DNA from: Micromonospora olivasterospora
Lineage (GTDB): Bacteria; Actinomycetota; Actinomycetes; Mycobacteriales; Micromonosporaceae
NCBI RefSeq assembly: GCF_007830265.1
Contig: NZ_VLKE01000001.1
Coordinates: forward strand, 2,542,001-2,606,000
Length of the DNA stretch: 64,000 bases
Direction of reading: 5' to 3'
The position numbers and the translations under genes were made by a program. The notes beneath the pieces were generated by a model, which searched no databases, was not told the DNA's origin, and saw only the letters and a program-made list of their open reading frames with translations. How positions within the stretch are numbered: the first letter of the stretch is position 1; every line of letters starts with the position of its first letter. Below are positions 18,321 to 30,691 of the stretch, in pieces.

Positions 18321-21224
18321 ATGCCCGAAGAAGACAATTTCCCACTGCCCGTGCTGGTCGGCCGTGACCGGGAACGGGACATCCTGTACGAGGGGCTGAG
18401 CCAGGCCCGCCACGGGCACGGCGGATGCGTCATCGTGGTCGGCGGGGACGGGACGGGCAAGTCCCGCCTGGTGCGGGAGGCCGTCCGCCGGGCACGGCAC
18501 GGCGGCATGTCGGTGCTGCTGGGGCGGACGGGCAGCACGGGCCCCGCCGTGCGGCTCCGCCCCCTCACCGAGGCGCTGGCCCACCTGTTCCGCACGGAGC
18601 CCATCCTGGAACATCCCAGCCTGCGCCCCTACCGGTCCGCCCTGGGCGGGCTCATCCCGGAGTACCGGTCCCCCGGCGCCCCACCCGTGCCGGCGTCGCC
18701 GGTGCTCCTCGGCGAGGCGGTGCTGCGGCTGCTGTCGGTCACGGGCGCCGACCGCGGCTGCCTGCTCGCCCTGGAGGACCTGCACGACGCCGACCCCGGG
18801 ACCCTCGCCGTGGTGGAATACCTCGCCGACAACGTCGCCGGCCAGGGCACCCTGCTGCTCGCCACCGTTCGGCAGGGCCCCGGGTCGGCATGGGATCTGG
18901 CGCAGGCGCTCAGCCGGCGGTGCAGCGGCACCCTCCTGCCGCTGCACCCGCTCGACCCGCCGGCCGTGCGCCTGCTCGCGGCGTCCCGACTCGGCCTCGC
19001 CCCCGAGCACGTACCGGAGCCGGTCGTGGACCGGCTCTGCCGGGACAGCGCGGGCAACCCGTTCCTCGCCGGAGAACTGGTGCGCGCCATGCTGGACAGC
19101 GGCACCCTCGTCCTCGATCCGAGCGGATGCCGGCTGGTGGACGAGGTACGTACCGAGGTGCCGTCGGCGGTCCGGCACACCGTCGCCGGTCAGGCCACGC
19201 GGCTCGGACCCGCCGGACGCCAACTGCTCACCGCCGCTGCCGTGATCGGCGAGCGGTTCCCGGTCTCGGTGCTCGGGCAGGCCCTGCGGCTGGACCGCGA
19301 CGACCTGCTCCGACACGTACGCGCGGCGGTCACCGCGGGGCTGATCGCCCCCGGCGGCGACGACCACGACTGGTACGCCTTCCGCAACCCGACGACCGCG
19401 GTCGCGCTGCTCGGCCTGCTCACCCCCGCCGACCAGGCCGCCCTCGCGCAGCGGTCGGCCGAGGCGGTACACGAGCTGCACCCCGACCTGCCGGGGGAAT
19501 GGTGCGCGTTCGCCGCCCGCCTCGCCGGCCGCGCCGGGGACGTGCCGGAGGCCGCCCGGCTGCTCGTCCTCGCCGGCCGCCGGGCGCTCAACGCGGGACG
19601 GCTGTGGGCGGCTACCGAGACCCTGGAGCGGGCATGGGAGCTGGCGGAGACGTCCCTCGACGGCCCGCTCCGCGTCGACGTGCTGCACGAGCTGCTGTGC
19701 GCGCTCGTGGAGAGCGGCGATGCCGGGCGCGGGCTGCGGCTCCTCGACAGCCTCGACGACCTGTGCCACCCGGCCGTCCCGCCCGAGCGGCTGGCCGCGG
19801 TGCACGTCCAGTTCGCCCGGCTCGCCTGCCTCGCGGGCCGGCGGGCCGATGCCGTCGTACAGCTCGAGGCCGCCCGGGCGGTGCTCGGCCCCGACGCCCA
19901 CGGACGGCAGACGGCGCACGTCGACGCCGTCGCGGCCCACCTCGCGGTGGACACCCCGGAGCAGGCCGCCCGGCTCGCCGACCGGGCGGTGGACGAGGCC
20001 GAGCGCGCCGGGCTGCCGGCGGTCGCCTGCCTCGGCTGGCAGGCCCGCGGCGTGCTGGCCAGCCGGCGGGAGACCGACGAGGCGCAGGCGTGCTTCTTCC
20101 GGATGCGGCAGCTGGCCGACCGCCACCACCTCCCGCTGTGGCGCGCCCGCGCCACGGCGCTGCTCGCCGAGCAGCGGTGGCTGCTGACGGGGGACGCCGA
20201 CGCCCTGGTCCGCAGCGCCGAACGAACCCGGCGGATCGGCGCGCAGACGCTGCGCCACACGGTCGGCTCCCTGCTCGCCTGGGACCAGGCCCTGCGCGGC
20301 CGGTACGCCGAGGCCGAACGCCTCGTCACCGAGAGCGCGGCCGAGGCGCAGCGGCTGGGGCTGCACGACGCGGTCGCGCGATCGATCCTGGTGCGCGCGA
20401 TCTGCGCCGGGCACCAGGGCCGGCGGCGCGAGGTGGACGAGGCGCTGGCCGAGCTACGGCACGCCGGCGGGACCGGATCGCCGTACGCGGCGCTCGTGCA
20501 CGGTATGGCGTACGCGGTGTGCGCGCTGCTGGAGGAGGACCCGGACCGGGCGCGTGACGAGCTGGCCCGGGCCGCCCGGTGCGACAGCCAGCGGGCCGCC
20601 CCGTACCCGCTGGCCGGGGAGCACGGGCTCGGGTTGCTGCTCGACGTGCTGCGCGGCGAGGCGGACTGGCGCCGCTGCCGCGAGGTGGGCGAAAGCGGCC
20701 CGGGCCGGCTGCGCTGGAACCGGCAGTTCGGGTTGCTGGCCGAGGCCGTCCTGCTCGGCAGGCAGGGCAGGCGGGAGCAGGCGGAGGCAGCCGTGACGGC
20801 GGTGCGGCGGGGGCCGCACCCGGTGGCGGTCCACCTCGGCCTGCGCCTGGTCGCCGAGGCCGCGCGGACGGACCGCTGGGGAGAGCCGGTCGACTGGCTG
20901 CGGCAGGCGGAGGAGTACTTCCGCCAGGCCGGGCTCCCGACTCCGGCCCGCGCCTGCCGGGCCGAGCTGCGCCGCTCCGGCGTGGTGGTGCCCCACCGCC
21001 GCGACACGAGCCGGGTCCCGCCGCCGCTGCGGCTGAAGGGGGTGACCGAACGGGAGTACGAGGTCCTGGAACTCATGGCGGACTGGTCGGACAACCGCAG
21101 CATCGCCAGCGAGCTGTTCATCTCGCCGCGCACCGTGGAGAAGCACGTCGCGAGCCTGATCGCGAAGACCGAGCAGGCGAACCGGGCGGCGCTCAGTCGC
21201 TACGCCGCCCGGTTCCGGCAGTAG
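18321..21224 (+). CDS. LAL-family (large ATP-binding LuxR) transcriptional regulator
   Basis: 967 residues. Residues 1-60 carry the P-loop VVGGDGTGKSRLVREAV (Walker A about 41-48), followed by a Walker-B-like strand GCLLALEDLHDAD, the AAA/NB-ARC-like signalling region, a long TPR-like helical middle and a C-terminal LuxR HTH (LTEREYEVLELMADWSDN then SPRTVEKHVASLIAKT). This is the MalT/LAL architecture, often cluster-situated activators of secondary metabolism. ATG 18321 follows GGAAGG. It converges with the RiPP-like operon; stop codons are only one base apart (21224 and 21226), so it is the probable pathway regulator. Confidence 0.92.
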   Translation: MPEEDNFPLPVLVGRDRERDILYEGLSQARHGHGGCVIVVGGDGTGKSRLVREAVRRARHGGMSVLLGRTGSTGPAVRLRPLTEALAHLFRTEPILEHPSLRPYRSALGGLIPEYRSPGAPPVPASPVLLGEAVLRLLSVTGADRGCLLALEDLHDADPGTLAVVEYLADNVAGQGTLLLATVRQGPGSAWDLAQALSRRCSGTLLPLHPLDPPAVRLLAASRLGLAPEHVPEPVVDRLCRDSAGNPFLAGELVRAMLDSGTLVLDPSGCRLVDEVRTEVPSAVRHTVAGQATRLGPAGRQLLTAAAVIGERFPVSVLGQALRLDRDDLLRHVRAAVTAGLIAPGGDDHDWYAFRNPTTAVALLGLLTPADQAALAQRSAEAVHELHPDLPGEWCAFAARLAGRAGDVPEAARLLVLAGRRALNAGRLWAATETLERAWELAETSLDGPLRVDVLHELLCALVESGDAGRGLRLLDSLDDLCHPAVPPERLAAVHVQFARLACLAGRRADAVVQLEAARAVLGPDAHGRQTAHVDAVAAHLAVDTPEQAARLADRAVDEAERAGLPAVACLGWQARGVLASRRETDEAQACFFRMRQLADRHHLPLWRARATALLAEQRWLLTGDADALVRSAERTRRIGAQTLRHTVGSLLAWDQALRGRYAEAERLVTESAAEAQRLGLHDAVARSILVRAICAGHQGRRREVDEALAELRHAGGTGSPYAALVHGMAYAVCALLEEDPDRARDELARAARCDSQRAAPYPLAGEHGLGLLLDVLRGEADWRRCREVGESGPGRLRWNRQFGLLAEAVLLGRQGRREQAEAAVTAVRRGPHPVAVHLGLRLVAEAARTDRWGEPVDWLRQAEEYFRQAGLPTPARACRAELRRSGVVVPHRRDTSRVPPPLRLKGVTEREYEVLELMADWSDNRSIASELFISPRTVEKHVASLIAKTEQANRAALSRYAARFRQ

Positions 21225-21225
21225 G

Positions 21226-21759
21226 TCAGCCCGGACTGACGGCCCGGTAGCCGCCGCCGAAGAAGACCGCCGGCTCGGCGCCGGGCCGCGCCTGGCACCA
21301 GTACGGCGCGCCGAGCACCAGCGCGTGGTCGGCCACCCCGATCACCTGGGTCACCGTGCACACCGCGACGGCCATCGCCCCGTCCAGCAGCGGCAACCCG
21401 TCCCGGATACGGTGGGGCACCCCGGCGAAGCGGTTCGGGATCGGGGCGGCGAACTGGTCGGCCAGCTGGCACTGCCGCCGGTCCAGCAGGTTGACCGCGA
21501 ACGCCCCCTCGGCGGTGACGGCGGCCAGCGTACGGCTCGCCCGGCCCAGCGAGACGAGCAGCAGCGGCGGACGCAGCGACACCGAGGTGAACGCGTTCAC
21601 CGTGCAGCCGACCGGTCGCCCGTCGACGTGGCTGGTGACCACGGCCACGCCCGTGGCCCAGTTCCGCATGAACTCCCGCAGCACCGGGCCGCTCACCCCA
21701 CCGGGCCGGGTCGGGTCGGCGGGCGTCGTCGAGTCCCTGGGCGAGGCGGTGGTGGTCAT
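21226..21759 (-). CDS. flavin-reductase-like domain protein
   Basis: 177 residues of the flavin reductase / FMN-binding split-barrel family: REFMRNWATGVAVVTSHVDGRPVGCTVNAFTSVSLRPPLLLVSLGRASRTLAAV, then FAVNLLDRRQ and GVADHALVLGAPYWC. Members reduce FMN or FAD with NAD(P)H for partner oxygenases, or act directly. Its ATG overlaps the stop of the TPR gene by four bases (ATGA). In this locus a flavin-supplying or redox role beside the EpiD-like flavoprotein is an inference. It is the last gene of the leftward operon. Confidence 0.87.
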   Translation of the reverse strand: MTTTASPRDSTTPADPTRPGGVSGPVLREFMRNWATGVAVVTSHVDGRPVGCTVNAFTSVSLRPPLLLVSLGRASRTLAAVTAEGAFAVNLLDRRQCQLADQFAAPIPNRFAGVPHRIRDGLPLLDGAMAVAVCTVTQVIGVADHALVLGAPYWCQARPGAEPAVFFGGGYRAVSPG

Positions 21760-23876
21760 CGCGCGCCGGCCAGGTCCAGTTGCTCGGCCGCGCTGGCCGC
21801 CTCGTCGGCCCGGCTGGCGTCGGCGTCCCCGAGTTCCGCGTGGCAGCGGGCCCGCCGGCTCAGCAGCTCGCCCCGGTCGGCCCCGGGCAGGTCCAGCGCG
21901 CGGCTGTAGTCGGCCACCGCGTCGGCCCACCGGCCGGCCGCCTCGTGGACGAAGCCCCGGTTGTACAGCAGGTCCGGGTTGTCGGGCGTGCTGGCCAGCG
22001 CCGTGGTCAGGTCGGCGACCGCCGTCGCGTGATCCCCGCCGTCGAAGGCGAGCGCGGCCCGGCTGGCCAGCGCGGCGACCAGTCCCGGATCGGCACGCAA
22101 CGCCGCGTCGAAGTGCCGCCGCGCCTCGTCGCCCTCGTCGTCCGCGAGCGCGAGCACGCCACGCAGGTGCAGCAGGCGGGCGTCGTCCGGGTGCCGCAGC
22201 AGCCCCTCGTCCAGGTGCGGGCGGGCGTCGTCGACCAACCCCTCGTCGAGCAGCAGGCTGACCAGGTTCACCCGGGCGTCGATCTGGTCGGGCTCCAGCT
22301 CGACGACGTAGCCGAAGTCGGCCACCGCGCCGGCCAGGTCGCCCAGCTCGGCCTTGATGTCCGCCCGGTTGTAGTACAGCTCGTAGAACGGCGGGGACAG
22401 GCTGATCGCGGTGTCGCAGTCCGCGATCGCGCCCGTCAGGTCGCCCAGCCGCCGCCGCACGTCCGCCCGGTCGAAGTAGTAGTCGGCGTAGTTCGGGTCC
22501 AGCTCGATCACCTTGGTGAGGTCGGCCAGCGCCTCGTCCAGCCGGCCGAGCGCGAGGTACGCCTTGCCCCGGTTGTGCACCAGCACCGACCGGTGCAGCC
22601 GGTGCTTGTCGCCGGGCAGCTCCCGGTCGAGCCGCTGCAGTCCCTCGTCGACGAGCCGCAGCGCCGCGGGCAGCCGGCCCAGCCGCATCTCGATCAGCGC
22701 CAGCCCGTTGTTCTGGAACACCGAGTGGAACGCCCGCTTCTGCGGGTCGGGCAGCAGCGAGGCGAGCGCGATCGAGTTGTTGATGTAGCCCCGGGCCAGG
22801 TGGTGGTCCTTCAACCCGTCCGGGTGGAAGCGGGTGTAGAGCATCGCCAGCGCGTACCCGGTGGACATCTGCAGCTCCGGGTCCGAGTACCGGCTGCGCA
22901 GATCCAGGTAGGTCGGCTCGGCCTCCACGGTGCGCCCGAGCACCACCATGGCCGAGCTGGCCCGGGTGCTCAACAGCCAGAACCGCTCCATCTGGGTGTC
23001 CGGGTCCACGATGGCCCGGCCGCGGGTCCCGTAGTCGATCACCGCGTGGTAGTAGCCCATCGCGCCGCAGTGCCGGGCCGCCTCGTACAGCGCCTCCGCG
23101 CCGGCCCCGGCCGGGTCGCTGCCGCGCTCCAGGTGCCAGGGGATCGCGCCCAGTTCCAGGCTCCACTCGCCGCGCTCGCGCAGCAGCGCGGCACGGGCGT
23201 CGTGCAGGGCCACCCGCACCTCCGGGGCGGCCTGCTCGTACGCCGCCAGCTCCGCCGGGTCGGTGGACGTGCCGTCCGCGTCGACGTACGCCCGCAGCAG
23301 CTCGTCGGGGCCGCGGCCGGCGGCGGGGCCGGGCCGGTGCGCATCCGGCAGCCGGATCGCGTACCGGTCGAGCGCGGCGGTCAACTCGGGCTCCAGGGAC
23401 CCGCCGCCGGTGCCGATGAGGACCCCGATCCGCTCCGGTCGGGCGCGGCGCAGGAAGATGGCGAGGAACTCCTGATCCGTCGGGTCCGCCTCGTCCACCC
23501 GGTCGAACGCCAGCCGCAGCGGCAGCCGGCCGGCACGGGTGGCGTACCCGGCGAGGAACTCGGTCGCCCCGTGAGCCAGCCGGCGGGTCCGGTTGGCCGG
23601 GTAGATCCGGGTCCGCTCCTCCGGCACGGCGAGCGAGGTCAGGGTCTCGGGCGCGGCGTCGATCGCGCCGCGCAGCTCCGGCGCGGCGGAGAGGATCTCG
23701 GTCAGGTAGCCCCGGACGAGGTCGGGCCAGCGCTCGTACGCCTCCGGCACGACCAGCCGCAGCACGCTGCCCAGGCCGGTGTACGGGCCACGCAGGCCCC
23801 GGTGGGAGTCGACCGCGAAATCGGCCCGCTCGCCGTCGGCCGGTGAGGGCCCGACCCGCCATTGGTGTGCAGTCAT
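21756..23876 (-). CDS. TPR protein of the RiPP-like locus
   Basis: 706 residues. The C-terminal two thirds contain at least seven TPR motifs (for example LVHNRGKAYLALGRLDEALA, YYFDRADVRRRLGDLTGAIA, LLYNRGFVHEAAGRWADAVA). The N-terminal 220 residues (SHRGLRGPYTGLGSVLRLVVPEAYER, LRLAFDRVDEADPTDQEFLAIFLRRA, IGVLIGTGGG) resemble the helper part of an ATPase or LAL-type sensor module without a P-loop; I do not recognise the family. Start ATG 23876 with GAGGAG upstream. It is coupled to the flavin reductase gene and follows the M50 gene by 90 bases. A scaffold or recognition role in peptide maturation is inferred from context only. Confidence 0.75.
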   Translation of the reverse strand: MTAHQWRVGPSPADGERADFAVDSHRGLRGPYTGLGSVLRLVVPEAYERWPDLVRGYLTEILSAAPELRGAIDAAPETLTSLAVPEERTRIYPANRTRRLAHGATEFLAGYATRAGRLPLRLAFDRVDEADPTDQEFLAIFLRRARPERIGVLIGTGGGSLEPELTAALDRYAIRLPDAHRPGPAAGRGPDELLRAYVDADGTSTDPAELAAYEQAAPEVRVALHDARAALLRERGEWSLELGAIPWHLERGSDPAGAGAEALYEAARHCGAMGYYHAVIDYGTRGRAIVDPDTQMERFWLLSTRASSAMVVLGRTVEAEPTYLDLRSRYSDPELQMSTGYALAMLYTRFHPDGLKDHHLARGYINNSIALASLLPDPQKRAFHSVFQNNGLALIEMRLGRLPAALRLVDEGLQRLDRELPGDKHRLHRSVLVHNRGKAYLALGRLDEALADLTKVIELDPNYADYYFDRADVRRRLGDLTGAIADCDTAISLSPPFYELYYNRADIKAELGDLAGAVADFGYVVELEPDQIDARVNLVSLLLDEGLVDDARPHLDEGLLRHPDDARLLHLRGVLALADDEGDEARRHFDAALRADPGLVAALASRAALAFDGGDHATAVADLTTALASTPDNPDLLYNRGFVHEAAGRWADAVADYSRALDLPGADRGELLSRRARCHAELGDADASRADEAASAAEQLDLAGAR

Positions 23877-23966
23877 GCCGTTGCTCCTCGGTTCGGGATG
23901 GATCTGGCGGCGCGGTGGCCGTGGTGTGGTGGTCGTGGTGGGACGGGCCGCCGGACGCTGAGGCGG

Positions 23967-25157
23967 TCAGCCGGCGGGGGCGGGGCTCGGGGTCGCGGCG
24001 CGCCGGCGCCGGGTACGCCCGGCCAGCAGCGGCAGCAGCACGATCTCGAAGACGACGAGCAGGAGGGAGGCGACCGAGTCCCAGAAGCCGGGCCCGGTGG
24101 GGGTGCCGTTCGCGAGGGCGGTGCAGACCCGGGTGCCGAACTCCCAGATCAGCGGTGCGGTCCAGAGCGCGACGGTGACCAGCAGCACCCCGACGCCGGC
24201 GCAGGTGATCAGCGCGAACCAGGGCGCGAGCTGCCGGTCGCGCGGCGACCAGTCGCCGTCGGCCCAGTCGGACCGGCGCACCCACGGCAGCCAGCGGAAC
24301 CTGTCGCGCAGGTACGCCCGGCTCACCTCGTCCAGGTTCGTGCAGCCCAGCGCGGTCGTTGCGACGTAGTACATGTCCGTGCGCAGGAAGACGTAGAACT
24401 GCCAGGACATACGCAGCAGCACGGTGTAGGCCACCGCGAGCGCGAGCCGTCCCGGCCAGGACAACCCGCCGGACAGGTCGGCCGCGGCGGCGAGCACGAG
24501 CGCGCCGAAGAGCACCGCGTCGGCCAGCAGCCCGGCCAGCATCGGCAGGTAACGCTGCCGCGCCGGCACGGTGAGCAGGGCGTCCAGCTCGGTCTCGACC
24601 ACCGCGTAGTAGAGCCGGCGGCCGACCCGCATCCGCGTGGGCAGGCCGAGCCGGCGGGCCGCGAGCAGGTGGTACCACTCGTGCCACAGGATGGCCGGCG
24701 ACTGGCAGAGGGCCAGGCCCAGCTGCACGGCGAGCAGGGACGGCACGAAGAACACGTTGCCGGCCTGCGGGCGCAGCTCCGGCCGGCTCACCATGGCGAC
24801 CGCGGCGGCGGCGATGATCAGGGCGTACGCGGCCCAGGCGAGCGGGGAGAAGGCGGCCCTGCCGAGCCGGCGGAAGCGGACCTTCGGGGGCGCGGCCAGG
24901 GGTTCCCCCTCGGCGCGGACGAACCCCAGCTCGCGCATCGCGTCCACGAAGTCCGCCATGTCGACGGACTCGCCGTAGGTGCGCCGGTACCACTGCTCGG
25001 CGTCGGCGAGCGGCATTCCGTCGGCGAGGCGGCGCAGCAGCGCCACGCCGTCCTCCGGCAGCACGGCGAAGGAGGCGGCGTCGACGCGGCCGACCGTGAT
25101 GCCGTCCCGCTCCTGGACGTACGTGAGCGGGTGGAACTCCAGGCGGGTGGTTGACAT
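23967..25157 (-). CDS. membrane M50-type metalloprotease with N-terminal RRE (PqqD-like) domain
   Basis: 396 residues. Residues 1-82 (FHPLTYVQERDGITVGRVD, AVLPEDGVALLRRLADGMPL, YGESVDMADFVDAMRELGFV) follow the PqqD/RiPP-recognition-element pattern: three strands, then three helices. Residues 100-380 form a polytopic membrane domain with about six segments and HEWYH at 159-163 in SPAILWHEWYHLLAARRLGLP, the HExxH zinc site of M50 site-2-type proteases. The natural reading is a membrane protease that grips a leader peptide and cleaves it during export. The precursor gene lies just upstream on the same strand across a hairpin. ATG 25157 follows AAGGGGG. Confidence 0.8.
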   Translation of the reverse strand: MSTTRLEFHPLTYVQERDGITVGRVDAASFAVLPEDGVALLRRLADGMPLADAEQWYRRTYGESVDMADFVDAMRELGFVRAEGEPLAAPPKVRFRRLGRAAFSPLAWAAYALIIAAAAVAMVSRPELRPQAGNVFFVPSLLAVQLGLALCQSPAILWHEWYHLLAARRLGLPTRMRVGRRLYYAVVETELDALLTVPARQRYLPMLAGLLADAVLFGALVLAAAADLSGGLSWPGRLALAVAYTVLLRMSWQFYVFLRTDMYYVATTALGCTNLDEVSRAYLRDRFRWLPWVRRSDWADGDWSPRDRQLAPWFALITCAGVGVLLVTVALWTAPLIWEFGTRVCTALANGTPTGPGFWDSVASLLLVVFEIVLLPLLAGRTRRRRAATPSPAPAG

Positions 25158-25186
25158 CGGTCCCCCTTCGCGGTGACGGCCGGTGA

Positions 25187-25221
25187 CGGCCGCCCCGGCG
25201 CCGGAGACGCCGGGGCGGCCG
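25187..25221. terminator. strong hairpin between precursor and protease genes
   Basis: A perfect 14-bp stem (core arms GGCCGCCCCGGCG and CGCCGGGGCGGCC, closed by an outer C-G pair) with a 7-base loop. It begins 7 bases after the precursor stop and ends 29 bases before the protease start. This is the usual place for a partial terminator or processing hairpin that raises precursor mRNA above that of the maturation genes. Confidence 0.7.
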
Positions 25222-25227
25222 GACCGG

Positions 25228-25308
25228 TCAGCAGCAGTCCGTGCAGTACAGCGGCGCAGACGTGGTGAGCTTGATGGAACCGGTCTTGCGGATCGTGATC
25301 TTCTTCAT
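25228..25308 (-). CDS. putative RiPP precursor peptide (26 aa)
   Basis: The ATG at 25308 is 8 bases after a near-perfect AGGAGG. The peptide starts MKKITIRKTGSIKLTT and ends SAPLYCTDCC. The basic amphipathic front (K-x-I-x-I-R-K) looks like a leader able to add a strand to an RRE; the Cys-rich end looks like a core with a free C-terminal cysteine, the substrate form of EpiD-like decarboxylases. It is too short for routine gene finding. It heads the operon hairpin - RRE-M50 - TPR - flavin reductase. Support is the ribosome site, position, composition and hairpin. No homologue could be searched. Confidence 0.75.
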   Translation of the reverse strand: MKKITIRKTGSIKLTTSAPLYCTDCC

Positions 25309-25492
25309 GACGTTCACCTCCTCGGACGGCGTCGTGGGGGGTGGCTGGCCGGCCTGGGCCTGGGGAAGAACCTGCCAGGCCGGCGGGCCGTGCGGCATGG
25401 GGAGCGACCCCCAAACTCCGGGCGGCCCGGGCCGCCGAAGATGGGGCCGTTCCCCCATGTCCGTGACCGGCCCGTCACGCCACGCTGTCGCC
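25309..25492. promoter_or_regulatory. divergent promoter region of the RiPP-like locus
   Basis: This 184-base gap separates the precursor gene (left) from the flavoprotein gene (right) and must hold both promoters. It contains the palindrome GGCGGCCCGGGCCGCC near 25422-25437, an ATGGGG/CCCCAT inverted pair near 25450-25468 and several GGGGA-type words of the kind LAL proteins such as MalT bind. None is strong enough to name as the regulator's site. Confidence 0.4.
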
Positions 25493-26170
25493 ATGCGAGA
25501 TGACGCGCTTTCGGTGATCGTCTGCGGTTCCAGCGCCGCGATGGCCACCTCGGGGTACCTGTCCTGGCTACGTCAGGAGATCGACCTGCCGCTGCGGGTG
25601 CTGCTCACGGCGAGCGCCGAGCGCTTCGTGCAGCCGCAGGTGGCCGCCTGGTACGCCGACGAGGTCTACACCAGCGCCGACCCCACCCTGAATCCGACGG
25701 AGTTCGCGAAGCGTTCCCTGGGGATCGTGGTCCTGCCGGCCACGGCGAACACGCTCGCCGCGGCGGCCCTCGGGCTGGCCGGCAACCCGGCGCAGACCGC
25801 GCTGCTGGCCAGCGACCGCCCGGCGATCTTCTTTCCCAGCATGAACCGCTCGATGTGGGTCAAGCGGGTCACCCAGCGGCACGTCGAGGCACTGCGCGAC
25901 GAGGGCCACACCGTGGTGGAGCCACAGGAGCGGGTCATCTTCGAGCTGTGGCAGCGGGAGAACGCCGTCGGCATCGCCATGCCGCCGCCGGACGCCGTGG
26001 CCGAGCTGATCGTCAGCTGGCTGGAGACGACCCTGTCCGCCGGGGCCGAGGCCGCCGGGGCCGAGGCCGCCGAGGCCGAGGCCGCCGAGGCCGGGGCCGC
26101 CGAGGCCGAGACCGCGACCGGCGGGGTCGAGGGGGTCGAGGGGTCCGTCGGCCGCGCCGCCACCGCCTGA
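25493..26170 (+). CDS. EpiD-like HFCD flavoprotein with altered catalytic residue
   Basis: 225 residues of the homo-oligomeric flavin-containing cysteine decarboxylase family (EpiD, MrsD, PPC decarboxylase). Residues 82-87 are PATANT (family PASANT) and 114-122 are FPSMNRSMW, where Asn118 matches EpiD Asn117. From the remembered EpiD sequence, the stretch DPLLN-His67 aligns without gaps to DPTLN-Pro68, so the catalytic histidine is replaced by proline. EpiD-type enzymes oxidatively decarboxylate a C-terminal cysteine to an aminoenethiol; here the chemistry may differ. A tail of about 40 residues, rich in Ala and Glu, is unusual. It diverges from the precursor gene. Confidence 0.85.
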
Positions 26171-27209: not shown

Positions 27210-27277
27210 TCGGCCGACCGGTCACGTGATCGACTCCGTGTCGCCGACATCGCGGCATCGACGACGGCGTGACCACC

Positions 27278-27294
27278 CCATGTCGCCGACATGG
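27278..27294. repeat. palindrome CCATGTCG-C-CGACATGG
   Basis: 8-bp perfect arms around one base, directly before the 23-bp array. The inner 12 bases TGTCGCCGACAT also occur at 27239-27250, giving two copies 42 bases apart. It could be a protein-binding site or a remnant of repeat formation. Confidence 0.5.
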
Positions 27295-27297
27295 CGC

Positions 27298-27514
27298 GGG
27301 CAGCGCCCGACAGCGCGCGCGGGCAGCGCCCGACAGCGCGCGCGGGCAGCGCCCGACAGCGCGCGCGGGCAGCGCCCGACAGCGCGCGCGGGCAGCGCCC
27401 GACAGCGCGCGCGGGCAGCGCCCGACAGCGCGCGCGGGCAGCGCCCGACAGCGCGCGCGGGCAGCGCCCGACAGCGCGCGCGGGCAGCGCCCGACAGCGC
27501 GCGCGGGCAGCGCC
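27298..27514. repeat. 23-bp tandem repeat array, nine full units
   Basis: Nine identical 23-base units plus a 10-base partial one begin at 27298, 27321, 27344, 27367, 27390, 27413, 27436, 27459, 27482 and 27505. Each starts GGGCAGCGCCCGACAGC and ends in GCGCGC; GGGC-AGC-GCCC inside each unit can fold into a small hairpin. 23 is not a multiple of three and there is no codon bias, so it is not coding. There are no spacers, so it is not CRISPR. It lies between the 3' ends of fdhD and the convergent DUF4192 gene, where it may act as transcription barrier. Copy number is probably variable between strains. Confidence 0.9.
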
Positions 27515-27535
27515 TGGCGGGACGCGCCGCCCCGG

Positions 27536-28591
27536 TCAGGTGGGACGGCGGGGCCCGCGGGGGCGGCGGCGTCTCGGGCGCAGCACGGCGGGCGCGTTGA
27601 CCGCCGGCCAGCCGTCCAGCCGCGACGGCGGCACCCCGCCGCGGAGCAGCTCGTCGAGGAGCAGCGCGAGCGAGTAGCCCGGATGCGCCGACAGGACGCG
27701 CTCCAGCGCCACGGCCGCCAGCGCGCCCTGCCCCGCCCGCCACGCGGCGAACGCGAGCAGGCAGCCCGGCGCCGCGATCAGCTCCGGGGCGGCGCGGCGG
27801 AACACGTCCGTCCAGAGGGCGATGTCGGCGTCCCGCCCGTCGGTGCGTTCCCACGCGTGGTCGCGGATCGGCAGGTGGGTCAGGAGCAGCGTCAGCCAGG
27901 CGACCTCGTCGTCGGGGAGCCGGTCGCCCCGGCGGTGCTGACGCAGGGCGGCGCGGACGGCGGCGACTCCCGCCCGACGCAGGGTGCGCCCGCCGATCAG
28001 GTCGGCGGCGGGCGCCCCGGCCAGCAGGGCGTCCCGGCGGCGCTCGGCGCGGGCGACCGCCGCGCGCATGGCCGGTGCGGCCGGGCCGCCGAGCGGGGCC
28101 ACCTGCGCGGTCAGGGCCGCCCGGTCGGGTAGCGCCACCTGTCCGGCGAACACGGCCGCCGCGCTGACCTCGCTGGCCCCGACGTCGTACGGGGTGCCCT
28201 CGGCGGGACAGCAGGCGGGCTCGGCGCACAGGTACGACCAGTAGCGCCCGTCGGTCACGCGCAGCGCGTCGAGCACGGCCAGGCCGGCGGCGGCCAGCGA
28301 CCCGCGTACCGCGTCGACCGCGGGGGTGACCCGGGCCGCCTCGCCGTACCCGAGCACGGTGGCGGACTCGGCGCCCTGCCGCGCGATCACGCCGGCCAGG
28401 TGGACGGCCGGGTCGAGCGGGTCGGCGTCCGGGCCGGGTAGGTCGGTCCGGGCGGCGAAGACGATCCGCGGGCCCCGCAGCGCGACCACCACCACACTGT
28501 CGGCGGGATGGAAGCCGAGCAGGTACGGCACGGCGGCGATCAGGTCGGCGGGCGAGCGGACGGCGAGCCGGGGGCGGTCGGTCGGGGTCAT
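27536..28591 (-). CDS. DUF4192 protein
   Basis: 351 residues matching the actinobacterial DUF4192 family: RLAVRSPADLIAAVPYLLGFHPADSVVVVALRGPRIVFAARTDL at the start, AESATVLGYG, TDGRYWSYLC and a long helical C-terminal half (LLTHLPIRDHAWERT, PELIAAPGCLLAFAAWRAGQGALAAVALERVLSAHPGYSLA). No biochemical role is known. The C-terminal 20 residues are Arg/Pro-rich. It is convergent with fdhD across the repeat array. Confidence 0.88.
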   Translation of the reverse strand: MTPTDRPRLAVRSPADLIAAVPYLLGFHPADSVVVVALRGPRIVFAARTDLPGPDADPLDPAVHLAGVIARQGAESATVLGYGEAARVTPAVDAVRGSLAAAGLAVLDALRVTDGRYWSYLCAEPACCPAEGTPYDVGASEVSAAAVFAGQVALPDRAALTAQVAPLGGPAAPAMRAAVARAERRRDALLAGAPAADLIGGRTLRRAGVAAVRAALRQHRRGDRLPDDEVAWLTLLLTHLPIRDHAWERTDGRDADIALWTDVFRRAAPELIAAPGCLLAFAAWRAGQGALAAVALERVLSAHPGYSLALLLDELLRGGVPPSRLDGWPAVNAPAVLRPRRRRPRGPRRPT

Positions 28592-28644
28592 GGGGGCAGC
28601 CTGGGCCGCCTCGACCCGCCCCGGCAGGCCCTGTGGACGACACG

Positions 28645-28656
28645 CGGGTTATCCAC
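28645..28656. promoter_or_regulatory. isolated DnaA-box-like site
   Basis: GGTTATCCACAG contains TTATCCACA, the classical DnaA 9-mer, and TGTGGACGA lies about 15 bases before it. A single box in a short gap is of uncertain meaning. Confidence 0.3.
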
Positions 28657-28766
28657 AGCTACGGAGAGTATCGACGCAGGTCAGCGCGGATCGCCGACCG
28701 ACGGAAAGGCGCTCCGGCAGCGCGGGGCGCCCGCCGGTGTGGCACCGCACCGGCTACCTTGCGCTC

Positions 28767-29681
28767 ATGGACCTGGCGTACCTGCGGGCGCACCCGGAGC
28801 ACCTGCCGACGTTCCTCACCCACCAGCGGATCAGAGAGACGCCGGTCTCCGGCGGCAGCATCTGCACCGCGTCCCGGCTGACCCTGGACGACGGGCACTC
28901 CGTCTTCGCCAAGTCCTGGCCGGAGGGGTCCGCGCGGCCGGTGCCGGCCGACTTCTTCGTCACCGAGGCGGCCGGGCTGCGCTGGCTGCGGGAGGCCGGC
29001 GGGGCACCCGTACCGGAGGTGGTGGTGGCGCTGCCGGAGCTGCTGGCGCTCGACTGGGTGGAGCCCGGCGAGCCGACGCCCGAGGCCGCCGAGCGGTTCG
29101 GCCGCGAGCTGGCGGCGACGCACCGCGCCGGGGCACCCGTCTTCGGCGCCGGGTGGACCGGCTTCATCGGCGCGCTCCCGCAGGACAACACCCCCGACCC
29201 GGGCCCCTGGTCGGGCTGGTTCGCCCGGGCGCGGCTCGCGCCGTACCTGCGGATGTCGGTCGACAACGGCGCGCTCGGCGCCACCGAGGCCGCCCTGGTC
29301 GAGGAGGTCGTGGACCGGATCGGCGAGTTCGGCGGCGACGAGCCGCCGGCGCGGGTGCACGGCGACCTGTGGCCGGGCAACCTGCTGTGGGGGGCGGACG
29401 ACCGGGTGTGGCTGGCCGACCCGGCGGCGCACGGCGGCCACCGGGAGACGGACCTGGCCCTGTTGACGCTGTTCGGCGGCCCGCCGCACGCCGACCGGAT
29501 CCTGGCCGCCTACCGGGAGGCGTGGCCGCTGGCCGACGGGTGGCGGGAGCGGGTGCCGCTGCACCAGCTCCACCTGCTGCTGGTGCACGCGGCTCTGTTC
29601 GGCGCGGCGTACCGCGAAGCGGTCGGCAACGCCGCCCACACCGCGCTGCGCGGGGTCGACCGCGCTACGGTCGAACGGTGA
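28767..29681 (+). CDS. fructosamine kinase family protein
   Basis: 304 residues with the aminoglycoside-phosphotransferase-like fold: a variable N-lobe (SGGSICTASRLTLDDGHSVFAKSW, with a likely ATP-contacting lysine), the catalytic loop RVHGDLWPGNLLW and the metal site WLADPAAHGGHRETDLAL. Such kinases phosphorylate ketoamines or ribulosamines formed by glycation, prompting their removal. The physiological substrate here is unknown. Its stop overlaps the moaA GTG by four bases, so the two genes are coupled even though no pathway link is known. Confidence 0.88.
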   Translation: MDLAYLRAHPEHLPTFLTHQRIRETPVSGGSICTASRLTLDDGHSVFAKSWPEGSARPVPADFFVTEAAGLRWLREAGGAPVPEVVVALPELLALDWVEPGEPTPEAAERFGRELAATHRAGAPVFGAGWTGFIGALPQDNTPDPGPWSGWFARARLAPYLRMSVDNGALGATEAALVEEVVDRIGEFGGDEPPARVHGDLWPGNLLWGADDRVWLADPAAHGGHRETDLALLTLFGGPPHADRILAAYREAWPLADGWRERVPLHQLHLLLVHAALFGAAYREAVGNAAHTALRGVDRATVER

Positions 29682-30691
29682 CCGCCGCGCCACCGACTGA
29701 CGGCGTCCTCGTCGACCGGTACGGCCGCGTCGCCCGGGACCTCCGCGTCTCGCTGACCGACAAGTGCAACCTGCGCTGCACGTACTGCATGCCGGCCGAG
29801 GGGCTGCCCTGGCTGGCCGGGCCGCAGCTGCTCGACGACCGGGAGATCGTGCGGCTGGTCCGGGTGGCGGTGGAGCGGCTCGGGGTGACCGAGGTGCGGT
29901 TCACCGGCGGCGAACCGCTGATCCGCCGGGGGCTGGTCGGGATCGTCGCCGCCGTCGCCGCGCTGGAGCCCCGGCCCCGGATCTCGGTGACCACCAACGG
30001 CATCGGGCTCGACCGGCTGGCGCCCGCGCTGCGGGCCGCCGGGCTGGACCGGGTGAACGTTTCGCTGGACACCCTCGACCCGGAGCGGTTCGCCCGGCTG
30101 ACCCGGCGGGACCGGCTGGCCGACGTGCTCGCCGGGCTGGCCGGGGCCGCCGCCGCCGGGCTCGCCCCGGTCAAGGTCAACAGCGTGCTGATGCGCGGGG
30201 TGAACGACGACGAGGCGCCCGCGCTGGTCCGCTTCGCGCTGGCGCACGGCTACGAGCCGCGGTTCATCGAGCAGATGCCGCTGGACGCCCAGCACGGCTG
30301 GGACCGCGGCAGCATGGTCACCGCCGAGGAGATCCTCGCCGCGCTGCGTGCCGCGTTCGAGCTGACCCCCGATTCGACCGAGCGGGGCGCCGCGCCGGCC
30401 GAGACGTGGCTGGTCGACGGCGGGCCGGCCCGGGTGGGCGTGATCGGCAGCGTGACCCGCCCGTTCTGCGGCGACTGCGACCGCACCCGGCTGACCGCCG
30501 ACGGTCAGGTCCGGGCCTGCCTGTTCGCCACGGAGGAGAGCGACCTGCGGGGTGCGCTGCGGGCCGGGGCCGGCGACGACGAACTGGCGGCGCGGTGGCG
30601 TACGGCGATGTGGGGCAAGCGGGCCGGGCACGGCATCGACGATCCCGCGTTCCTTCAGCCGGCCCGCCCGATGTCGGCGATCGGGGGTTGA
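29678..30691 (+). CDS. moaA: GTP 3',8-cyclase
   Basis: Radical-SAM enzyme that opens molybdenum cofactor synthesis by cyclising GTP. The N-terminal cluster motif KCNLRCTYCM (CxxxCxxC) follows DLRVSLTD, RFTGGEPLIRRG is present, the second [4Fe-4S] site is CGDCDRTRLTADGQVRAC and the chain ends in the required Gly-Gly. 337 residues from a GTG in a GTGA overlap with the previous gene. moaD follows by 2 bases. Confidence 0.96.
   Translation: MTAAPPTDGVLVDRYGRVARDLRVSLTDKCNLRCTYCMPAEGLPWLAGPQLLDDREIVRLVRVAVERLGVTEVRFTGGEPLIRRGLVGIVAAVAALEPRPRISVTTNGIGLDRLAPALRAAGLDRVNVSLDTLDPERFARLTRRDRLADVLAGLAGAAAAGLAPVKVNSVLMRGVNDDEAPALVRFALAHGYEPRFIEQMPLDAQHGWDRGSMVTAEEILAALRAAFELTPDSTERGAAPAETWLVDGGPARVGVIGSVTRPFCGDCDRTRLTADGQVRACLFATEESDLRGALRAGAGDDELAARWRTAMWGKRAGHGIDDPAFLQPARPMSAIGG

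Follow-up and report, generated by a model that had tools for sequence, protein, structure and literature searches.

A candidate RiPP-type locus of Micromonospora olivasterospora with an RRE-M50 protease, a TPR protein and an apparently undescribed precursor family

We analysed a candidate locus for a ribosomally synthesised and post-translationally modified peptide (RiPP) in a 64,000-nucleotide stretch of Micromonospora olivasterospora DNA (contig NZ_VLKE01000001.1, positions 2,542,001 to 2,606,000; below, the window, numbered from its first letter). A minus-strand operon starts with a short putative precursor peptide gene, MKKITIRKTGSIKLTTSAPLYCTDCC (25228-25308), and continues with a predicted fusion of a RiPP recognition element (RRE) to an M50, or site-2, protease (23967-25157), a tetratricopeptide repeat (TPR) protein (21756-23876) and a two-component-type flavin reductase (21226-21759). 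Two plus-strand genes flank it, a divergent EpiD/MrsD-like flavoprotein of the HFCD family (25493-26170) and a convergent LAL-type regulator (18321-21224; Pfam AAA_16 4.3e-19 and, for the LuxR/GerE domain, GerE 1.5e-11). Residues 1-15 of the 26-residue peptide, MKKITIRKTGSIKLT (25264-25308), form the leader that column entropies mark as conserved, and residues 16-26 (25231-25263) form a variable region, TSAPLYCTDCC, with Tyr21 and a C-terminal Cys.

Most of what an earlier note had described from these letters alone was borne out. The peptide's C-terminus is Cys-rich as it said, and the perfect ribosome binding site that it read before the gene is AGGAGGT at 25316-25322 (minus strand), with a like site in orthologues. 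Its divergent gap is the intergenic region of 25309-25492 between the precursor and flavoprotein genes, which from the sequence we presume to hold the promoters, and its convergent regulator does end one base from the operon, with stops at 21224 and 21226. The note's single block of six genes was confirmed in the gene positions; the ATGA coupling that it gave the block was found at one of three junctions only, where the TPR and reductase genes overlap (21756-21759), since 70 bases separate peptide from M50 gene and 90 bases M50 from TPR gene. No sigma-70 consensus was found in 21000-25700.

The peptide was assessed through relatives of the protease. An alignment scan gave 184 M50 relatives, the best 80 of which were kept as an 80-locus set, and a second set held 40 further regions, 31 of the same family (L031-L061) and nine with a more distant M50 gene (L062-L070). 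Many of these loci are near relatives, and some genomes of the second set are the same strains as in the first. Among the best 80 of the 184 relatives, most members of the family are from Actinomycetota, and Chloroflexota and Bacillota contribute one outlier each. A short frame fitting the leader pattern lies upstream of the M50 gene in 75 of the 80 loci, with four more found by eye, and a precursor frame is present in 31 of the 31 regions L031-L061. Overall, 111 of 112 loci carry a precursor, giving 139 precursors of which 117 are distinct. Aligning short frames upstream of M50 genes was a check proposed in the earlier note, and the adverse outcome that it named, no conserved frame at that place, did not arise.

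These peptides share a fixed, basic leader with the consensus KKIxVRKxGxVRLT, followed by a variable end of 5-25 residues. A strict leader motif, drawn up after the peptides had been seen, occurred 77 times in 189 kb (the 2.5 kb before M50, both strands, 80 loci) and was absent from the 1,054 kb that make up the rest of these loci. In the close orthologues L031-L036 the 26-residue peptide is identical in 6 of 6, the base changes being synonymous and at third codon positions. On this comparative evidence we take the 26-residue frame to be a true precursor, and the locus shows what is generally expected of a RiPP system, namely a short precursor, its leader conserved and its core varying, that is encoded next to processing genes. 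The window peptide and nine others reached no NCBIfam cut-off (TIGR04081, at E 0.42, was far below its own), the window peptide and six other precursors reached no Pfam cut-off, and a tblastn search of plasmids with the peptide gave no match. Two loci hold two distinct precursors and five hold six or seven; the latter (L043, L048, L049, L051 and L057), one clade within the same bacterial family, have them as arrays upstream of M50 in which the leaders are almost the same and the ends have diversified.

The leader pattern does not extend to the region after the leader. Tyr follows the leader in all 117 distinct precursors and Cys in 116, while a control of 115 other short frames with a ribosome site from the 80 loci, mostly chance frames, had 17 with Tyr, 33 with Cys and 3 with both in the last 14 residues. 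The nearest Tyr and Cys are at most five residues apart in 103 of 108 cases, whereas with shuffled ends this number averages 74 and never exceeds 88. This proximity and conservation provide the strongest hint that some Tyr/Cys feature matters in the product. A metallophore was considered as the best explanation and dropped because the part following the leader contains just one Cys in 79 of 109 distinct precursors.

Neither Pfam nor NCBIfam named a domain in the M50 protein, and no PDB sequence matched its profile at E 1 or better. Its fold is consequently read from a predicted model (pLDDT, the predicted local distance difference test score, 90), for which fold comparison returned RRE and site-2 protease folds. 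The RRE would span residues 4-83 (24909-25148, minus strand), and a HEWYH zinc-site motif occupies residues 159-163 (24669-24683, minus strand); H159, E160 and H163 of this HExxH motif do not vary in alignments of 21 and of 37 proteins. The predicted fold is thus that of a site-2 protease with an RRE attached, in agreement with the earlier note, and the protein combines the RRE-protease fusion of an RRE-dependent leader peptidase with the fold and invariant HExxH of the M50 family. Plasmid relatives amounted to 24 records, all below 60% identity. When 396 genomes of the phylum were searched with a profile, four matches reached E 1e-50 or better, own genome included, a figure that is no clean prevalence as only four candidates per genome were scored; at least one of the four (G003, second) is of the more distant M50 family. 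In seven of the nine loci of the latter kind (L062-L070) the M50 gene adjoins a common protein which, from one sequence, reads like a ThiF/E1-like protein with an RRE-like N-terminus, and these loci are possibly another peptide family.

The TPR protein adjoins the M50 gene in 80 of 80 loci (L133 by a partial match only) and is at least 38% identical to the window copy in a 31-row alignment. It matches TPR families to 3.4e-30, and its model (pLDDT 94) is a long TPR superhelix with designed TPRs and O-GlcNAc transferase as best fold matches. Its N-terminal 235 residues found no placement by fold, the match list being filled by repeats. We read this part as a degenerate NTPase domain because residues 59-147 show a sub-threshold likeness to AAA_16 (0.0054) and no Walker A motif was seen. 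A role as scaffold or escort is inferred for the protein. Four-base overlaps join M50 and TPR genes at 19 of 75 junctions and TPR and reductase genes at 19 of 40 in the 80-locus set. The conserved synteny that the earlier note wished to see checked is present for the M50 and TPR genes (80 of 80 loci) and for a precursor beside M50 (79 of 80). The flavoprotein, which it had included in that check, proved clade-specific and is found in 10 of 80. As far as gene order among relatives can tell, the family core is precursor, RRE-M50 protease and TPR protein.

The flavin reductase (PF01613, 1.3e-35; best NCBIfam models StyB and HsaB, both below cut-off) is an optional member, found by similarity to the window copy in 41 of 80 loci and placed before M50 in two, L096 and L131. 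The flavoprotein (PF02441, 2.7e-17) also occurs in six of the 40 further regions (L031-L036), and a single gain suffices for its distribution on an M50 tree with 113 rows (SH-aLRT, the Shimodaira-Hasegawa-like approximate likelihood-ratio test, 99 by a quick method). All seven distinct precursors linked to it end in Cys, compared with 2 of 110 others, and an S/T-x2-3-Cys ending likewise marks 7 of 7 against 2 of 102. Both Cys-ending exceptions without the flavoprotein come from L079-L081, a sister clade of the flavoprotein loci; their precursors end GTWPFC or GTWPWC, and neither flavoprotein nor reductase was found in the stretch examined.

The closest sequence match of the flavoprotein is MrsD (1p3y, 4.8e-23), with EpiD further down, and its PATAN and PSMNxxMW motifs are preserved. 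All 10 aligned copies (the window's and those of 9 of the 10 flavoprotein loci) have Pro at position 68, in the column of EpiD residue 67, which we take to be the active-site His. MrsD and 6jls have His in this column and 1g5q, presumably the peptide-bound, inactive H67N mutant of EpiD, has Asn; 7cfu has a His near it, the alignment being gapped there. Of the marks of an EpiD-type decarboxylase, HFCD family membership, PASANT-like and PxMNxxMW motifs and a Cys-ending partner are thus present and the conserved His is not, so the EpiD-like enzyme of the earlier note survives in its matches, motifs and partner and fails at that column. With the motifs kept and the His replaced by Pro, binding of a Cys-ending peptide remains plausible, and the chemistry may differ from EpiD's. 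Action on the C-terminal Cys is plausible given the pairing with Cys-ending precursors. The product envisaged in the note, a peptide modified at its C-terminal Cys, agrees with a RiPP-type locus and with the pairing in one clade; the family is not defined by such chemistry, because the flavoprotein was gained once and the reductase is found in only about half of the loci. The tail of the window flavoprotein (26045-26130) is Ala/Glu-rich, repetitive and longer than in most of nine aligned relatives.

Other modifying enzymes were sought by all-frame clustering of 121 regions, a procedure that undercounts (tblastn finds more TPR and reductase genes) and whose clusters were partly read by eye. On these minimum figures, families in more than 10 regions were M50 (115), TPR (83), reductase (43), SARP-like (21), AfsR-like (18), LAL (17) and flavoprotein (16), the SARP-like and AfsR-like names being given by reading sequences; no other enzyme family passed that mark, within the bounds set by undercounting and partial cluster reading. 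Regulator-like proteins are the commonest extra neighbours among relatives. The genome gave 23 radical-SAM matches, one of them in the window (29747-30238), and this is MoaA (TIGR02666 over cut-off). Lying 3.6 kb from the flavoprotein and found, at about 90%, in only 2 of 80 loci, it was rejected as a partner of the locus, and no epipeptide-type radical-SAM epimerase was found beside M50. None of three genome matches to Asn_synthase, the lasso cyclase type, is in the window. No Ser/Thr dehydratase or lanthionine synthetase was found near the window, in a search that left out linaridin and kinase-type dehydratases and in which DUF4135, matching nowhere, was uninformative. Lant_dehydr_N occurs only near 40 kb of contig C1 (39699-43913), about 2.5 Mb from the window, a LanC-like gene lies at C1 5378992-5379687 (about 2.8 Mb away) and a YcaO gene at C1 4313455-4314381 (about 1.7 Mb away). 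Since these genes lie elsewhere in the genome, the strain probably has other RiPP loci. The earlier note had seen none of the usual class-defining enzymes, and they were indeed not found beside the locus; nor did we encounter homologues in a characterised RiPP class, which it had named as grounds for giving up its proposal.

Between precursor and protease genes lies a perfect stem-loop on the minus strand (25188-25220, by folding) with a stem of 13 bp, or 14 bp if extended by a base at either end. A perfect stem reached by at most 1 of 30 shuffles is present at this place in 42 of 75 loci. The median over the 75 is 12 bp compared with about 5 in shuffles, stem sequences differ between clades, and those of L031, L035 and L036 are 13-15 bp; the stability of the whole 191-nt stretch with the stem-loop is not unusual (z -1.3). 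A rho-independent terminator was dropped, as a terminator scan did not report the stem. Keeping peptide output above enzyme output is a common RiPP arrangement, and the stem-loop may be an attenuator or processing hairpin serving this end.

We consider it probable that the locus belongs to an apparently undescribed RiPP-type family in which an RRE guides M50 cleavage of the leader. The LAL regulator would switch the operon on and the stem-loop would favour precursor over enzymes. The RRE may pair with the KKIxVRKxGxVRLT leader as an extra strand and hand the peptide to the membrane-embedded M50 site, where a cut near the LT end of the leader would release a core of roughly 8-15 residues with Tyr and Cys, perhaps also exporting it through the membrane. 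The TPR protein would act as a scaffold, or as an escort of substrate or enzyme. In the window's clade the flavoprotein might in addition bind the C-terminal Cys and oxidise it with flavin from the reductase; decarboxylation would be only one possibility, the conserved His being Pro.

A number of observations weigh against this reading. No universal modifying enzyme was found among the clustered regions, so that any modification is putative. Site-2 proteases usually require a membrane segment in the substrate, and the precursor is without one. Leader columns are near-invariant and end columns far more variable (column entropies, 109 distinct peptides), a difference that is partly built in because the search pattern favours leader-like frames. 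A single locus of the 80, L091, yielded no precursor, and in the more distant M50 loci L062-L070 (30-37% identity) none of nine matches the peptide pattern and the TPR protein is lacking too. The long stem is missing in 33 of 75 loci and is only 6 bp in the near relative L071/L032. Fisher's P of 1.2e-9 for the pairing of flavoprotein and C-terminal Cys (7 of 7 vs 2 of 102) overstates independence, as the flavoprotein clade is one event, and the absence of the conserved His counts against a flavoprotein reaction of the familiar kind.

A stronger version of the proposal would be a new RiPP class, in which the RRE-M50 or TPR protein modifies Tyr and Cys (for example as a Tyr-Cys crosslink or a metal-binding site) and the clade flavoprotein, lacking the usual His, adds a second reaction at the C-terminal Cys, unlike EpiD's. 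To our knowledge neither an RRE/site-2 protease nor a degenerate-NTPase TPR protein acts as a peptide-modifying enzyme, and we hold this to be quite improbable. The same shortage of a universal modifying enzyme would suit peptide signalling, with the site-2 protease cutting a pheromone, the TPR protein as intracellular receptor and little or no modification. Universality of the TPR protein and the regulators adjoining the locus would also fit; however, that protein has no DNA-binding domain in Pfam, six or seven precursors with different ends per locus suit natural products better, reductase and flavoprotein would be idle, and we know of no RRE from pheromone systems. M50 proteases do mature peptides elsewhere, according to PMC10885120, and even so we think signalling a distinctly unlikely role.

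For the flavoprotein clade, the locus could instead make an AviCys (aminovinyl-cysteine) peptide, the C-terminal Cys being decarboxylated and the enethiol closing a ring on a Ser/Thr two or three residues before it that a distant dehydratase had dehydrated. The S/T-x2-3-Cys endings satisfy the mining rule for such peptides in PMC11162475, and the genome does hold the distant Lant_dehydr_N, LanC-like and YcaO genes. Against this stand the Pro in all ten aligned flavoproteins, the lack of a dehydratase beside the loci (as seen by an undercounting clustering, the nearest to the window being some 2.5 Mb off) and the 70 of 80 loci without flavoprotein, which would be left unexplained; we regard AviCys formation as unlikely. 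Alternatively, the flavoprotein may have lost its decarboxylase chemistry and bind the Cys-ending peptide or flavin as a chaperone or sensor. An invariant Pro in the His column of a protein that retains PATAN and PSMNxxMW would agree with such a pseudo-enzyme. On the other hand, another residue could serve as base, and both the pairing with a C-terminal Cys and the 64-75% identity to the window copy in Umezawaea, Streptomyces and Actinacidiphila suggest an active role, and we think this possibility rather unlikely.

Around the locus lie ordinary genes, several of molybdenum-cofactor type (FdhD, MobA-like, DUF6457, DUF4192 and MoaA). With MoaA (GTP 3',8-cyclase), FdhD and MobA-like genes at 28508-30691, the peptide locus appears to be set among molybdenum-cofactor genes. 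Between the DUF4192 and FdhD genes (27222-27600) there is a minisatellite-like array, with frames reading ARAAPDSARGQRPT repeatedly.

With a single short gene and its two universal partners, a family of this kind offers a small, testable system for studying the delivery of a soluble peptide by an RRE to a site-2 protease. It also poses the question of why every core keeps Tyr and nearly every one Cys. Its flavoprotein clade supplies a naturally occurring EpiD-family variant that lacks the conserved His, and chemists gain a new family of possible natural products.

Among known systems, the B1/B2 proteins of lasso peptides share the RRE-assisted leader peptidase, and the RRE of our protein is closest by fold to a lasso B1 protein. 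The lasso leader protease is transglutaminase-like, whereas the protease here is M50, and no Asn-synthase-type gene is in the window. With the EpiD/MrsD-type flavoproteins of AviCys peptides, linaridins and thioamitides the window flavoprotein shares the PF02441 fold family, the PATAN and PxMNxxMW motifs and a Cys-ending partner; it differs in having Pro for the conserved His and in that no neighbouring dehydratase was found. Epipeptide formation requires a radical-SAM epimerase, in contrast to a window whose only radical-SAM gene is the MoaA described above. Epipeptides do share an M50 membrane protease that matures a short ribosomal peptide, EpeP, which PMC10885120 describes as thought to cleave and export the epipeptide. 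In the same paper the M50 proteases TglG/TmoG of the pearlins cut 3-thia-amino acids off substrate peptides, so that cleavage of a leader or scaffold peptide is common to both; the pearlin end is a single modified, non-encoded residue, while the ends here are longer and encoded. A peptide aminoacyl-tRNA ligase was not noticed, though no search for one was aimed at the relatives.

In the literature searched there was no description of the precursor family with its TPR partner. The flavoprotein subset may be in the supplement of PMC11162475, which has 1172 precursor/flavoprotein pairs under the mining rule that our clade satisfies. The precursor family is thus apparently undescribed. Daptides come closest in processing: according to PMC10036551, they too have an intramembrane site-2 protease (MpaP/DapP) with an RRE fused to its N-terminus, and short adjoining precursors, often several per cluster. 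Daptides have an invariant C-terminal Thr, with which 0 of 109 distinct precursors end here, and a leader ELExMEAP instead of KKIxVRKxGxVRLT, and the universal TPR protein is a further difference. Counterparts of daptide DapB, DapC, DapD and the methyltransferase are not among the families that recur in over 10 of the 121 regions, although the clustering missed true members and the regions were not annotated gene by gene. As judged from sequence, the processing step is daptide-like, and the precursor family, its universal TPR partner and the lack of a known class-defining enzyme set the locus apart.

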